From Aminobacter sp. HY435 (GTDB taxonomy: Bacteria; Pseudomonadota; Alphaproteobacteria; Rhizobiales; Rhizobiaceae), in contig NZ_JANKZL010000008.1 of NCBI RefSeq assembly GCF_027568395.1, positions 62,001-126,000 on the forward strand: a stretch of 64,000 nucleotides of DNA, in the 5' to 3' direction. This document shows positions 10,591 to 54,360 of the stretch, in pieces. The position numbers were made by a program, and so were the translations under genes. How positions within the stretch are numbered: position 1 is the stretch's first letter; each line of letters begins with the position of its first letter. The notes under the pieces were generated by a model. It did not search any database and was not told where the DNA came from. It saw only the letters and a program-made list of their open reading frames with translations.

Positions 10591-11340
10591 CTAGATGGTA
10601 ACGCCGCCGTCGACCAGGACAGCCTGGCCGGTGACGAAGCGCGATTCATCCGACAGCAGGTAGACCACCAGCGGGGCGATGTCGTCGACGGTCGCGAGGC
10701 GGCCGATCGGTTGGCGGGCGATGAAGTCCTTTTCGGCCTGCACCGGATCGGCGGCAGCGGCAATGCGGCCACGCAGCGAGGGCGTGTCGACCGTGCCGGG
10801 GCACAAAGCGTTGCAACGGATGCCGCGTCGGACGTAATCGGCGGCCATGCCCTTGGTGAAGCCGATGACCGCCGCCTTGGTGGCGCCATAGAGCAGCCGG
10901 TTGGGGAAGCCTTTGATCGACGAGGCCATCGACGCCATGTTGAGGATCGACACGCCACCGGTCTTTTCCGCCTGCTCCAGCATGCCGGGCAGGAAGGCCC
11001 GGGTGGTGCGGTACATGCTTTTGACGTTGAGGTCGAAGCTGAAGTCCCAGTCGTCGTCGTTGCAGTCCAGGATCGTGCCGTTGTGAACGAAACCGGCGCA
11101 GTTGAAGAGGCCGTCGAGCGGCGCCTGACCGGCGGCGAAAGCGGCGACGGCCTTGCTGTCGCGGACATCGAGGCGATGGGTCTCGATGCTGCTGCTTTCC
11201 TCCGCCAGCGCCGCGAGCGCCTCCGCGTTGATGTCCGTCGCGATGACGTGGGCGCCTTCCTTGGCGCAGGCAAGTGCGCTGGCGCGGCCGATGCCTTGCG
11301 CCGCGGCGGAAATGAAAATGCGTTTCCCGCTCAATCGCAT
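10591..11340 (-). CDS. SDR oxidoreductase, probable 2-keto-3-deoxy-L-fuconate dehydrogenase
   Basis: A 249-residue SDR. The cofactor turn SAAAQGIG is at residues 11-18, NCAG at 80-83, and the catalytic Tyr151-x3-Lys155 lies in LLYGATKAAVIG, preceded by SIKGFPNR. This segment resembles the BDH2/2-keto-3-deoxy-L-fuconate dehydrogenase group. It would oxidise C4 of 2-keto-3-deoxy-L-fuconate with NAD+, giving the diketo acid split by the FAH enzyme. ATG 11340 is chosen because GGGAGGAGG lies just upstream; a 20-residue extension begins outside the promoter logic. It is the first gene of the operon, divergent from the IclR regulator gene. Confidence 0.83.
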   Translation of the reverse strand: MRLSGKRIFISAAAQGIGRASALACAKEGAHVIATDINAEALAALAEESSSIETHRLDVRDSKAVAAFAAGQAPLDGLFNCAGFVHNGTILDCNDDDWDFSFDLNVKSMYRTTRAFLPGMLEQAEKTGGVSILNMASMASSIKGFPNRLLYGATKAAVIGFTKGMAADYVRRGIRCNALCPGTVDTPSLRGRIAAAADPVQAEKDFIARQPIGRLATVDDIAPLVVYLLSDESRFVTGQAVLVDGGVTI

Positions 11341-11378
11341 GACCGTTGCCTCCTCCCAGCAAACTGCTTGCGTCTGTC

Positions 11379-30671: not shown

Positions 30672-30860
30672 CCAGGCCGGCAACGCCGGGTGATCTCAAA
30701 TACATTTGTATGAGAAATGTTGCCTCACGGCGGGTTTCAAAGCGTTACGGGCCTTGTTCTGGCCCGAAAGAAGCATCATATTTCGCCGCAGGCATGCTGG
30801 AGTCCCGCCAGCGGAGCCTGGGTCTCGACCCGACACCCGACGGGGCAGAAGCAACAGAGG
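30672..30860 (+). promoter_or_regulatory. Structured 5' region of the Bax-inhibitor gene, candidate ybhL leader
   Basis: The gap upstream of the BI-1 gene contains ATACA-TT-TGTAT (30700-30711), likely a promoter-proximal palindrome, then CGGGCC/GGCCCG (30748-30753 with 30761-30766), GCTGG/CCAGC around 30796-30815 and GGGT/ACCC around 30821-30832. In alphaproteobacteria a conserved RNA called the ybhL motif is known upstream of ybhL (BI-1) genes. Gene context fits; I could not check the covariance consensus. Confidence 0.45.
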
Positions 30861-32422: not shown

Positions 32423-33061
32423 TCATCCGGTGCCGCCGAGCAGGGGCACGAAGCGCACAGCCGCTAGCGATGTCTCGGCAAATTCGCTGTCGGTGACGCG
32501 CACCAGCCTGATCAGCTGCTGGTCGCCGGGCGGCCCAAGCGGCATGACCAGTCGCCCGCCGATCGCAAGCTGGTCCTTCCAGGCTTCGGGGATGGAGCGT
32601 GCGCCGGCGGCGGACAGGATGGCGTCGTAGGGCGCCTGTTCCGGATGTCCGCCGGCGCCGTCACCCGTTATTACCTCGACGTTCCGGTAGCGGAGCCGCC
32701 GCAGGCGAGCGCGGGCCTGTTCGGCGAGCTTCGCGATGCGTTCGATGGTGACCACCTTGCCGGCGATCCCGGACAACACCGCGGCGGCGTAGCCGGATCC
32801 GGCGCCGATTTCCAGGACCTTGCTGCCCGGACGAATTGCGGCCGCCGAAATCATCAGGGCGACGATATAGGGCTGGGAGATGGTTTGGCCGGCCTCGATT
32901 GGCAAAGCGGTGTCGTCATAGGCCTGCCGGCGTAGCGGCGGCGGCACGAAATCCTCGCGCGGCACGCTGCGCATTGCCTGCAGCACCGCAAGATCGACGA
33001 TGCCGCGCCGGACGATCTGCTGCTCCACCATGTCAAGGCGAGCCAACTTGAAGCTGCTCAT
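32423..33061 (-). CDS. pcm: Protein-L-isoaspartate O-methyltransferase
   Basis: A 212-residue SAM-dependent methyltransferase that starts repair of isoaspartyl residues. SAM motif I is [15 protein letters not shown] near residue 80; the upstream LPIEAGQTISQPYIVALM is the Pcm-specific substrate loop with the conserved Thr-Ile-Ser. It is divergent from the CCUCCUCCC small-RNA cluster. In enterobacteria pcm sits beside surE; here it is alone. Confidence 0.92.
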   Translation of the reverse strand: MSSFKLARLDMVEQQIVRRGIVDLAVLQAMRSVPREDFVPPPLRRQAYDDTALPIEAGQTISQPYIVALMISAAAIRPGSKVLEIGAGSGYAAAVLSGIAGKVVTIERIAKLAEQARARLRRLRYRNVEVITGDGAGGHPEQAPYDAILSAAGARSIPEAWKDQLAIGGRLVMPLGPPGDQQLIRLVRVTDSEFAETSLAAVRFVPLLGGTG

Positions 33062-33271
33062 GGGCTGCCTCTTGCGTTTTGTTTTCGCCTAGCTTTCGCG
33101 TTTGCGCGCGGCGGCAGAGCCTGGCACCTGCGGCGGCCCGCCGCAGGTGCCGTAGCGTCCGTCGCGTGTTGCGGCGCGATGCGAACTTGCTGCATTGCAC
33201 AAAACGCAAAGCTCCTATGCAATATCAACACTTTAAATCAGAGCGCGGCGGAGCTAAATATCACTCATCGA
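33062..33271. promoter_or_regulatory. Divergent promoter region between pcm and the small-RNA cluster
   Basis: This part of the 570-base gap has no ORF with a credible start. It becomes AT-richer toward the RNA cluster. A TGC-rich element TTGCTGCATTGCA (33187-33199) and CCTATG (33214-33219) recur upstream of the DUF1127 gene at 54082-54094 and 54121-54126. A promoter for the RNA cluster is expected here; -35/-10 boxes are not clear. Confidence 0.4.
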
Positions 33272-33309
33272 ATTTGTCGGGCCTACCTCCTCCCAGGTTT
33301 CCGACGAAT
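33272..33309 (+). ncRNA. CCUCCUCCC-loop small RNA, unit 1 (cuckoo/CcsR-like)
   Basis: ATTTGTCGG (33272-33280) pairs with CCGACGAAT (33301-33309), with one G-U pair; inside, GCCT pairs with AGGT, leaving the loop ACCTCCTCCC (33285-33294). Presentation of CCUCCUCCC in a hairpin loop is the defining feature of the cuckoo RNA family of alphaproteobacteria, which includes the stress-induced CcsR RNAs of Rhodobacter sphaeroides. The loop is complementary to Shine-Dalgarno-like sequence. Confidence 0.8.
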
Positions 33310-33310
33310 A

Positions 33311-33342
33311 GGTCAGCGCCTACCTCCTCCCAGACGCTGGCC
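33311..33342 (+). ncRNA. CCUCCUCCC-loop small RNA, unit 2
   Basis: GGTCAGCG (33311-33318) pairs with CGCTGGCC (33335-33342), with one G-U pair. The loop again contains the identical ten bases ACCTCCTCCC (33322-33331), though the stem sequence differs from unit 1. Different stems with an identical loop indicate selection on the loop. Only one base separates it from unit 1. Confidence 0.8.
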
Positions 33343-33351
33343 ACCAATACG

Positions 33352-33392
33352 ACACCCGCCGGACCTCCTCCCCCGGCGGGTGTTGTTTTTTT
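33352..33392 (+). ncRNA. CCUCCUCCC-loop small RNA, unit 3, doubling as the intrinsic terminator
   Basis: ACACCCGCCGG (33352-33362) pairs perfectly with CCGGCGGGTGT (33373-33383) around the ten-base loop ACCTCCTCCC (33363-33372). A T-run follows at 33386-33392, so this third hairpin also ends transcription. The three units probably derive from one plus-strand transcript ending near 33392 that is processed, as for Rhodobacter CcsR1-4. No DUF1127 gene lies directly upstream here, unlike in Rhodobacter. Confidence 0.82.
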
Positions 33393-33631
33393 AAGCTCCC
33401 CCCAGAGACACGTTCCGCCCGCGCTTTCGACGCCTGGATGGACCACAGCCGGCCAAAGCGCCGGACAGCGCCAGCACTGCAACGAGCGGTGTGGCGTTCG
33501 GGTGGCCTTACAGGCTATAGGCAGTGCCAAGCACCTTCAGGTCATGGCCGCGGAGGGACGATATGATGGCCGCCGCGGCTTGCGATCGAGCGCCGACGGC
33601 GGCTGGTGAGGAACGAGGAAAGGAATTCAGC

Positions 33632-35146
33632 ATGAACGTGACAAGCGAAACCGCTGCCCTTCTCGAGCGGCTCGGCGTCGCCAAGGCCGATTTCACCGGC
33701 GGCGACCTGGTCGTGCGCAGCCCGGTGACCGGCGAGCAGATCGGCGCCTTGAAGTCGATTTCGCCTGCCGAAGCCGGCAAGGCCATCGAGCGTGCCGACA
33801 AGGCCTTCAGGACCTGGCGTAACGTGCCTGCACCGAAGCGCGGCGAGCTGGTGCGCCTGCTCGGAGAGGAATTGCGCGCCGCCAAGACCGATCTCGGACG
33901 TCTTGTGTCGATCGAAGTCGGCAAGATTCCGTCGGAAGGCCTGGGCGAAGTCCAGGAAATGATCGACATCTGCGACTTTGCCGTCGGCCTGTCGCGCCAG
34001 CTCTACGGCCTGACCATTGCTACCGAACGCGCCGGCCATCGCATGATGGAAACCTGGCACCCGCTCGGCGTCATTGGCGTTATCTCGGCCTTCAACTTCC
34101 CGGTCGCGGTGTGGTCGTGGAACGCAGCGCTCGCTTTTGTCTGCGGCAACTCGGTGATGTGGAAGCCGTCGGAAAAGACGCCGCTGACAGCACTTGCCTG
34201 CGACGCCATCTTCAAGCGCGCCGCCGCCCGCTTCGGCGCGGACGCTCCCGAGGGCCTGTCGCAGGTGCTGATCGGCGACCGCGCCGTCGGCGAAGTGCTG
34301 GTCGACAATCCGAAGGTGCCGCTGGTGTCGGCCACCGGCTCGACCCGCATGGGCCGCGATGTCGGTCCGCGCCTGGCCAAGCGCTTTGCCCGCGCCATCC
34401 TCGAGCTCGGCGGCAACAATGCCGGCATCGTCTGCCCGTCGGCCAATCTCGACATGGCGCTGCGCGCCATTGCCTTCGGCGCCATGGGCACCGCCGGCCA
34501 GCGCTGCACCACCATGCGCCGGCTGTTCGTTCACGACAGCGTCTACGATGCGCTCGTTCCCCGTCTCAAGAAGGCCTATGACAGCGTCTCGGTCGGAAGC
34601 CCGCTGGAAAGCGCGGCGCTGGTCGGTCCGCTGATCGACAAGGCGGCCTTCGACGGCATGCAGAAGGCGCTGACGGAAGCCGGCGAGCACGGCGGCAAGA
34701 TCACCGGCGGCATTCGTGTCGACCAGGGTCATGTCGGCGCCTATTACGTCAAGCCGGCGCTCGTCGAGATGCCCGGCCAGGTTGGCCCGGTGCTTGAAGA
34801 GACCTTCGCGCCGATCCTCTATGTCATGAAGTACTCGGACTTCGACCAGGTGCTCGACCTGCACAATGCGGTCGGCGCTGGCCTGTCGTCGTCGATCTTC
34901 ACGCTCGACCTGCAGGAAGCCGAGCGCTTCCTGTCGGTCGAAGGGTCGGACTGCGGCATCGCCAACGTCAATATCGGCACCTCGGGCGCCGAGATCGGCG
35001 GCGCGTTCGGCGGCGAGAAGGAAACCGGCGGCGGCCGCGAGAGCGGCTCCGATGCGTGGAAGGCCTATATGCGCCGCGCCACCAACACGGTGAACTACTC
35101 CAAGGCGCTGCCGCTGGCGCAGGGCGTGTCGTTCGACATCGACTGA
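33632..35146 (+). CDS. amaB: ALDH7-type aldehyde dehydrogenase (alpha-aminoadipic semialdehyde / piperideine-6-carboxylate dehydrogenase)
   Basis: A 504-residue aldehyde dehydrogenase of the antiquitin group. Active-site residues are Asn155 in SAFNFPVA, Lys178 in WKPSEKTP, Glu258 in LELGGNNAG and the nucleophile Cys292 in TAGQRCTT. ALDH7 enzymes oxidise 2-aminoadipate 6-semialdehyde to 2-aminoadipate in lysine breakdown. AGGAAAGGAA precedes ATG 33632. It stands alone between the small-RNA cluster (240 bases upstream) and a terminator. The enzyme family is sure; the lysine role is inferred. Confidence 0.87.
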   Translation: MNVTSETAALLERLGVAKADFTGGDLVVRSPVTGEQIGALKSISPAEAGKAIERADKAFRTWRNVPAPKRGELVRLLGEELRAAKTDLGRLVSIEVGKIPSEGLGEVQEMIDICDFAVGLSRQLYGLTIATERAGHRMMETWHPLGVIGVISAFNFPVAVWSWNAALAFVCGNSVMWKPSEKTPLTALACDAIFKRAAARFGADAPEGLSQVLIGDRAVGEVLVDNPKVPLVSATGSTRMGRDVGPRLAKRFARAILELGGNNAGIVCPSANLDMALRAIAFGAMGTAGQRCTTMRRLFVHDSVYDALVPRLKKAYDSVSVGSPLESAALVGPLIDKAAFDGMQKALTEAGEHGGKITGGIRVDQGHVGAYYVKPALVEMPGQVGPVLEETFAPILYVMKYSDFDQVLDLHNAVGAGLSSSIFTLDLQEAERFLSVEGSDCGIANVNIGTSGAEIGGAFGGEKETGGGRESGSDAWKAYMRRATNTVNYSKALPLAQGVSFDID

Positions 35147-54052: not shown

Positions 54053-54081
54053 GCGGCAACGCAACCCATGCGCTTCGTGCA

Positions 54082-54126
54082 TTGCTGCATTGCAGCATAT
54101 CATTTTGCAGCGCAGTAGTTCCTATG
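54082..54126 (+). promoter_or_regulatory. TGC-rich element upstream of the DUF1127 gene
   Basis: TTGCTGCATTGCA (54082-54094) and CCTATG (54121-54126) also occur upstream of the CCUCCUCCC RNA cluster (33187-33199, 33214-33219). Further TGCA/GCAG units follow (54106-54114). Such TGC-rich palindromic DNA resembles sites described for PhaR-type regulators, a weak inference. Confidence 0.4.
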
Positions 54127-54192: not shown

Positions 54193-54360
54193 ATGTTGTT
54201 CGACAGCCTTCTGACCCGCGCTCGCCAGAGCGCCGCCAAGCGCAAGCAGTACAAGCGCCTCGTTGCCGAGATCGACAGCTTCTCGGGCCGCGACCTGGCC
54301 GACATGCGCGCCGACCGCGGCGAGATGCTGTACCAGGCCTACAAGCACGTCTACGGCTGA
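54193..54360 (+). CDS. DUF1127 small protein
   Basis: A 55-residue basic protein ending in the DUF1127 core LVAEIDSFSGRDLADMRADRGEM. In Rhodobacter the related CcaF1 (DUF1127) is an RNA-binding protein co-transcribed with CcsR small RNAs. Here gene and RNAs are 21 kb apart but share a 13-base upstream element. ATG 54193 has AGGAACGCAAG before it. A GC-rich hairpin follows the stop (around 54371-54391). Confidence 0.85.
   Translation: MLFDSLLTRARQSAAKRKQYKRLVAEIDSFSGRDLADMRADRGEMLYQAYKHVYG

Follow-up and report, generated by a model that had tools for sequence, protein, structure and literature searches.

Several described small RNAs resemble the locus studied here. According to two accounts, NfeR1 of Sinorhizobium meliloti (Smr14C2/SmelC397) consists of three hairpins, each with CCUCCUCCC, and has a sigma-70 promoter of its own (PMC10746234, PMC7143759). 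It is driven by LsrB through a box, TGCA-N6-GCAT, at -72 to -60, and the alpha-r14 promoters follow the pattern CTTAGAC-N17-CTATAT (PMC10746234, in part). NfeR1 is also described there as repressed by NtrC and as silencing ntrB and two ABC-transporter mRNAs (PMC10746234, PMC7143759). The CcsR1-4 or cuckoo RNAs of Rhodobacter, which are encoded with ccaF1 (DUF1127), share the loop motif; the CcsR/ccaF1 operon is reported to have an RpoHI/RpoHII promoter and to be processed by RNase E. AbcR1 and AbcR2 (ar15) are likewise anti-Shine-Dalgarno RNAs, aimed at transporter mRNAs, and AbcR1 of S. meliloti is reported to be LsrB-driven. They belong to a separate Rfam family and, in the genome studied here, to a separate locus beside a LysR gene. 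Lastly, the gene for the sRNA MmgR of S. meliloti carries a PhaR (AniA) site, and MmgR is tied to PHB metabolism (PMC12542648 and PMC7143759, both in part). Rfam assigns the present locus to a different family, and what MmgR offers is a precedent for the control circuit alone.

The window is the whole 64,000-nucleotide stretch of Aminobacter sp. HY435 DNA that was analysed. Its ar14 locus shares with NfeR1 the three CCUCCUCCC hairpins, the terminator in the third of them, the stand-alone gene, the sigma-70-like spacing, and an LsrB-like box at about the equal position. In contrast to NfeR1, it has a PhaR-type box, which goes unmentioned in the available portions of the NfeR1 accounts. The putative ntrB leader of this genome also differs, since it lacks a GGAGG, and the upstream TGC-N11-GCA, lying in a GC-rich inverted repeat, is unconvincing as an NtrC site.

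Structure, family, and conservation of the RNA

The loop ACCTCCTCCC occurs three times in the window sequence (Table 1). Three of the window's four CCTCCTCCC copies lie within 87 nt, while 0.75 copies are expected in the 64 kb and a count of four was reached in 2 of 100 shuffles. The predicted fold of -57.6 kcal/mol consists of three hairpins (z = -6.85; none of 200 shuffles was equally good), and the three loops lie at the positions given in an earlier, sequence-only reading of this DNA. In the minimum-energy fold, loop 1 is partly closed (ACCU with AGGU), while loops 2 and 3 are open. A T run (33386-33392) directly follows hairpin 3 on its 3′ side, and the two together are predicted to be an intrinsic terminator, as that reading had also recognized. 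Hairpin 3 was absent from the output of a simple terminator scan that allows a loop of 3-8, and generic promoter and terminator scans of 33060-33650, sigma-70 included, found nothing. The sequence-only reading had counted three separate small RNAs. The putative promoter and the terminator are read here as delimiting one RNA of ~120 nt with three loops.

Table 1. Features of the ar14 locus (window positions)
Feature	Position	Strand	Basis or remark
Conserved upstream block, putative control region	33187..33235	+	49 nt; 44/49 identical in 9 rows
Near-palindrome	33188-33202		fits PhaR consensus on both strands
PhaR(AniA)-type box TGCATTGCACAA	33191..33202	+	full consensus match
LsrB-like box TGCA-N6-GCAA	33196..33209	+	overlaps PhaR-type box
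-35-like CTTTAA	33231..33236	+	17-nt spacer to -10-like site
-10-like CTAAAT	33254..33259	+	7/8 positions of 33254-33261 conserved
Likely ar14 transcript	about 33266 to 33392	+	predicted from promoter and terminator
ar14 (NfeR1-type) sRNA	33269..33388	+	Rfam RF02344, 90 bits, E 5.1e-15
Hairpin 1	33272..33309	+	loop ACCTCCTCCC 33285-33294, partly closed in minimum-energy fold
Hairpin 2	33311..33342	+	loop ACCTCCTCCC 33322-33331; fold, covariation
Hairpin 3 and T run, predicted intrinsic terminator	33349..33392	+	loop ACCTCCTCCC 33363-33372; fold, covariation

The Rfam scan that had been proposed with the sequence-only reading gave a score of 90 bits for RF02344 (ar14, the NfeR1 family), above the cut-off of 58.8. 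The locus also has the ar14/NfeR1 trait of three CCUCCUCCC-loop hairpins with divergent stems and compensation (counted for hairpins 2 and 3). The element is thus most likely one anti-Shine-Dalgarno sRNA of the known ar14 family, and the RNA of this locus is a further instance of that family, ordinary for ar14.

The locus is kept in all nine Aminobacter congeners searched. The alignment has nine rows (own and eight congeners), because the locus of the ninth congener (L047) is cut by a contig end and was left out. In these rows, 118 of the 123 positions of the RNA (33266-33388) are identical. The upstream block is identical at 44 of its 49 positions (33187-33235) and the -10-like region at 7 of 8 (33254-33261). 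Identity is lower in the spacer (6 of 18), in the 66 positions just before the block (15 of 66), and past the terminator, where it drops to 2 of 26. Copies of ar14 above the cut-off were found in 10/10 genus genomes searched (own included) and in 37/61 genomes overall.

Covariation was counted for hairpins 2 and 3, as hairpin 1 aligned too poorly for counting. The 43 family sequences were hand-picked from 70 non-redundant candidates, the other 27 being four-hairpin overlaps or strongly divergent; since the candidates had been selected for three CCTCCTCC loops, the invariance of the loops in this set is by construction. For the two hairpins, 94.9% of the cells pair, and 194 two-sided changes were counted, compared with 53.3 in 500 shuffles, none of which had as many. 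When the alignment was slid by 1-3 columns, pairing fell to 34-51% of the cells. The earlier claims that the stems differ yet pair with compensation, and that a small RNA is under selection on its anti-Shine-Dalgarno loops, are upheld, the former for hairpins 2 and 3. In single-sequence folds, every loop is at least 75% open in 41 of the 43 sequences; the window sequence is one of the two exceptions, with a first loop 62% open.

PhaR-type boxes at the window copy and elsewhere

It is the promoter where the new information of this locus lies. The sequence-only reading had suspected that promoter control could differ, which fits the presence of a PhaR-type box and an LsrB-like box in the conserved upstream block. 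The box TGCATTGCACAA matches the PhaR consensus TGCRNYGCASMA in full and also the core of the S. meliloti PhaR motif. The former was deduced in Bradyrhizobium from footprints and a promoter alignment (PMC6201568, in part) and the latter was taken from the available part of PMC12542648. The LsrB-like box is one letter off the TGCA-N6-GCAT published for NfeR1. The promoter-like -35/-10 pair has the N17 spacing of alpha-r14, while the generic sigma-70 scan was negative. An NtrC site as in NfeR1 was rejected, the sole TGC-N11-GCA match (33129) lying in a GC-rich inverted repeat. This repeat, GGCACCTGCGGC/GCCGCAGGTGCC at 33123-33151, is situated between pcm and the conserved block, and a considerable part of it is a gap in the congeners.

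A PhaR matrix was made from 17 S. meliloti sites in EMSA-positive ('Efficient') promoters, that is, from a species other than the host; as given in the accessible part of the source, exoH has four sites, one of which was used. The segment 33185-33205 scores 22.4, the second best in the 64-kb window after position 54080 (24.5), while the training sites score 16.2-28.5. For the looser PhaR consensus, the window shows no enrichment (5 occurrences vs 4.06 expected) and the genome only a mild one (245 vs 162 for the reversed motif). The strict pattern TGCRNTGCACAA has 16 occurrences at 15 places in the genome, and the reversed pattern has one. Among these places are all three ar14 units of the genome and a second phasin gene, as well as a 3-hydroxybutyryl-CoA dehydrogenase gene and the intergenic region that separates phaR from a divergent thiolase gene. 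Boxes at the phasin, phaR/thiolase, and dehydrogenase genes are as expected of a PhaR regulon. At several of the 15 places, the adjoining gene (rimP or an inositol-monophosphatase gene, for instance) has no obvious connection with PHB. The phaR gene itself is present (TIGR01848, 147 bits; cut-off 109.45).

The genome has five ar14 copies above the cut-off, which form three units. On contig C22, three tandem copies with 157-nt spacing lie behind two DUF1127 genes. On contig C5 (L043, G000:C5:77500-83500), ar14 directly follows a Phasin_2 gene and is itself followed by a tRNA gene; this phasin-linked layout recurs in congeners and in three genomes of other genera. All three units carry a strong PhaR-type box, with scores of 22.4, 24.6, and 22.1. 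At another locus (L044, G000:C23:356500-364500), ar15, an AbcR-type sRNA, lies beside a LysR gene and trxB, which is the lsrB neighbourhood, and overlaps a weak ar14 match of 29 bits. By its place beside trxB and ar15, the LysR gene is a candidate lsrB.

Is the box common in the ar14 family? I sorted 92 ar14 units, 64 of which have a site scoring at least 14. After one unit with less than 80 nt upstream (L100) was dropped, this amounts to 64 of 91 units from 38 genomes with such a site within 250 nt upstream, and 27 of 91 without a site at that score. With 200 column-permuted matrices, the mean was 0.48 units and the maximum was 7. Random stretches of the same loci reach 14 in 53 of 3069 cases (1.7%); being mostly coding, they make a poorer control than the permuted matrices. 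Two loci (L002 and L005) are duplicates of L042 and L043 and do not enter the unit counts. Six loci that lack CCTCCTC clusters (L090, L091, L097, L101, L102, and L103) were placed at their Rfam coordinates, and weak ar14 matches were mostly left out of the set. In the genus Aminobacter, whose rows are not independent, the three conserved units are boxed in each of the 10 genomes. Outside the genus, 22 of the 28 genomes whose loci were analysed have at least one boxed unit and 6 have none, among them the genome with the best-scoring ar14 of all (G026). Sites of at least 14 precede phasin-led units in 10/10 cases in the genus and 3/3 outside, DUF1127-led units in 10/10 and 16/24, and units led by ar14 itself in 11/16 and 14/29. 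The upstream region of AbcR/ar15, taken as a non-ar14 control, has a site of 14.2 (at -212) that barely passes, and this weakens the case for specificity at scores close to 14.

In a consensus test of the 250 nt before the first loop, the box was found in 21 of 43 stand-alone, 2 of 33 DUF1127-linked, and 0 of 11 phasin-linked clusters, and the reversed motif was found in none; this test is post hoc, as the PhaR idea arose from inspecting these promoters. A scan of 84,980 species for TGCANTGCACAA at 66-96 nt before CCTCCTCCC gave 87 stretches, and among the 80 listed, 73 are from Hyphomicrobiales by title and 7 from other taxa. In 21 of the 62 matches with a further loop behind, TGCA-N6-GCAT is also nearby (39/3100 in random stretches), and in 17 of those 21 the PhaR-type box follows it at a distance of exactly 31 nt. 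The remaining 26 of 88 matches, with no further loop within 140 nt, include some ar14 genes caught at the second loop (L132 and L136), while others, from unrelated taxa, look like chance. By position count, S. kostiense has an LsrB box near -70, as in the published NfeR1, and a PhaR-type box over the -35 region; the S. medicae LsrB box differs by one letter. In Aminobacter, in contrast to the 31-nt separation in the 17 stretches, the LsrB-like and PhaR-type boxes overlap. With either arrangement, PhaR would be able to counteract LsrB.

A possible link to PHB storage

The locus is probably a gene for a trans-acting ar14 (NfeR1-type) sRNA with its own promoter and terminator, which would be activated by LsrB, repressed by PhaR, and released by PHB granules. 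On the basis of sequence, I infer binding by PhaR and LsrB, the sign of their regulation, transcription, and the targets of ar14. LsrB would activate and PhaR (AniA) repress ar14 at the overlapping boxes in 33187-33235, and PhaR would repress the phasin genes as well as the ar14 genes. When PHB builds up, the granules would bind PhaR and draw it off the DNA, and LsrB would then drive ar14. All three units, stand-alone, DUF1127-linked, and phasin-linked, would be expressed along with phasin. By base-pairing of their CCUCCUCCC loops with Shine-Dalgarno sequences, the RNAs would keep a group of mRNAs, those of ABC transporters probably among them, from being translated, so that nutrient uptake would be lowered while the cell stores carbon. 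More broadly, and with somewhat less confidence, I favour the idea that, in Hyphomicrobiales, the ar14/cuckoo sRNAs as a family form the RNA arm of the PHB-storage regulon, with PhaR acting against LsrB on the stand-alone promoter.

Alternatively, the factor acting at the box may be LsrB, or some other protein that recognises TGCA, rather than PhaR, and the locus may be an LsrB-driven relative of NfeR1 with no PHB link. The overlap of the two boxes at the window copy is in keeping with this, as are the LsrB control of NfeR1 in S. meliloti (PMC10746234, in part) and the borderline site of 14.2 upstream of AbcR/ar15, which is described as LsrB-driven in the same species. However, the same box stands before phasin genes and beside phaR, which are PhaR-regulated in relatives according to the available parts of PMC12542648 and PMC6201568, and the 17 stretches have the two boxes apart rather than overlapping. 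A reading by such a factor without PhaR is rather unlikely.

If control by PhaR is true, a widespread sRNA family with roles in symbiosis and stress would gain the carbon-storage state as an input, the nitrogen role of NfeR1 would become part of a carbon/nitrogen balance, and nutrient uptake would be tied to the storage of carbon in bioplastic granules. The frequent PhaR-type box would also account for ar14 copies that follow phasin or DUF1127 genes. NfeR1 is absent from the main text of PMC12542648, on PhaR of S. meliloti, and PHB from that of the NfeR1 study (PMC10746234). In the literature searched, whose scope did not extend to the original NfeR1, alpha-r14, and cuckoo papers, a PhaR-ar14 link was not found. 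A DUF1127-PhaR link was not found by title and abstract, and for CcsR with phasin or PhaR, CcsR was absent among the matches listed. The PhaR-ar14 link is a new inference, and this literature scope is no proof of its being unpublished.

As for targets, perfect GGGAGGAGG-N2-10-ATG sites number three in the genome, compared with one for the reversed motif, too few to mean much. They belong to two ABC-transporter genes and one SDR gene, the last being a candidate ar14 target. The fourth CCTCCTCCC of the window, at 11338-11357 on the minus strand, is the complement of the perfect GGGAGGAGG ribosome-binding site of this SDR gene; among solved structures, human DHRS6 (2ag5) is its best relative. A conserved NfeR1-ntrB pairing was rejected: the kinase ORF that precedes ntrC has the leader AAAGGAACGCCGCATG, with no GGAGG, this ORF being named ntrB by its place and look, without a family model.

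Neighbouring genes and transcript origin

The sequence-only reading had seen a cuckoo/CcsR signature and had pointed to the lone position of the hairpins. What stands is a related anti-Shine-Dalgarno loop RNA with no adjoining DUF1127 gene. At E<=0.01, the DUF1127 profile has five matches in the genome, none of them on the contig of the window. What does not stand is CcsR membership, which was rejected because the CcsR1 covariance model (RF02791) gives 33.2 bits, below its cut-off of 65.3, while ar14 reaches 90 bits; nor is the position unusual, since 45 of the 92 sorted units are led by ar14 itself and a stand-alone ar14 gene without a DUF1127 neighbour is common in the family. Could the RNAs nevertheless be of the CcsR type and, as in Rhodobacter, be cut out of a longer transcript, one that formerly included a DUF1127 gene? 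The loop is identical to that of the cuckoo/CcsR RNAs, and the C22 array of the same genome, behind its two DUF1127 genes, resembles the Rhodobacter layout and has the DUF1127 trait of CcsR/cuckoo (CIN1-type) RNAs. The window copy lacks that trait and stays under the CcsR1 cut-off. Moreover, a conserved promoter-like block lies immediately upstream of it, from which pcm diverges, and such an origin is highly improbable. Still less credible, and rejected, is a cis-acting leader or attenuator of the ALDH gene downstream, because conservation ends at the terminator (2/26 positions right behind it), other neighbours flank ar14 units elsewhere, and Rfam classes ar14 as an sRNA gene, even though the RNA is on the same strand about 240 nt upstream and its association with the gene is kept in 9/9 congeners.

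The ALDH gene codes for an L-piperidine-6-carboxylate dehydrogenase (NCBIfam, 810 bits; cut-off 730) and forms a unit of its own downstream of the terminator. As the sequence-only reading had noted, the RNA lies upstream of it; the gene starts at 33632, about 240 nt 3′ of the terminator. It follows ar14 in 9/9 congeners, and pcm is divergent upstream in 8/8 congeners whose flank extends there. Elsewhere in the window, a ybhL leader (RF00520) at 30789-30850 on the plus strand scores 51.5 bits, barely over its cut-off of 50.

A DUF1127-like gene of 55 amino acids lies 21 kb away from the locus (54193-54360, plus strand), with a profile match of 15.2 bits (E 0.019), below the Pfam cut-off. Before it, in 54080-54120 on the plus strand, there are two PhaR-type sites, 24.5 (54080) and 15.7 (54100). 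An Rfam search around the former gave one match only, far below its cut-off. On contig C22, another PhaR-type box (L111, score 26.5; G000:C22:137824-137835) lies about 100 nt before a weak DUF1127 match (137937-138017) without ar14. Small DUF1127 proteins as such may belong to the PhaR regulon.
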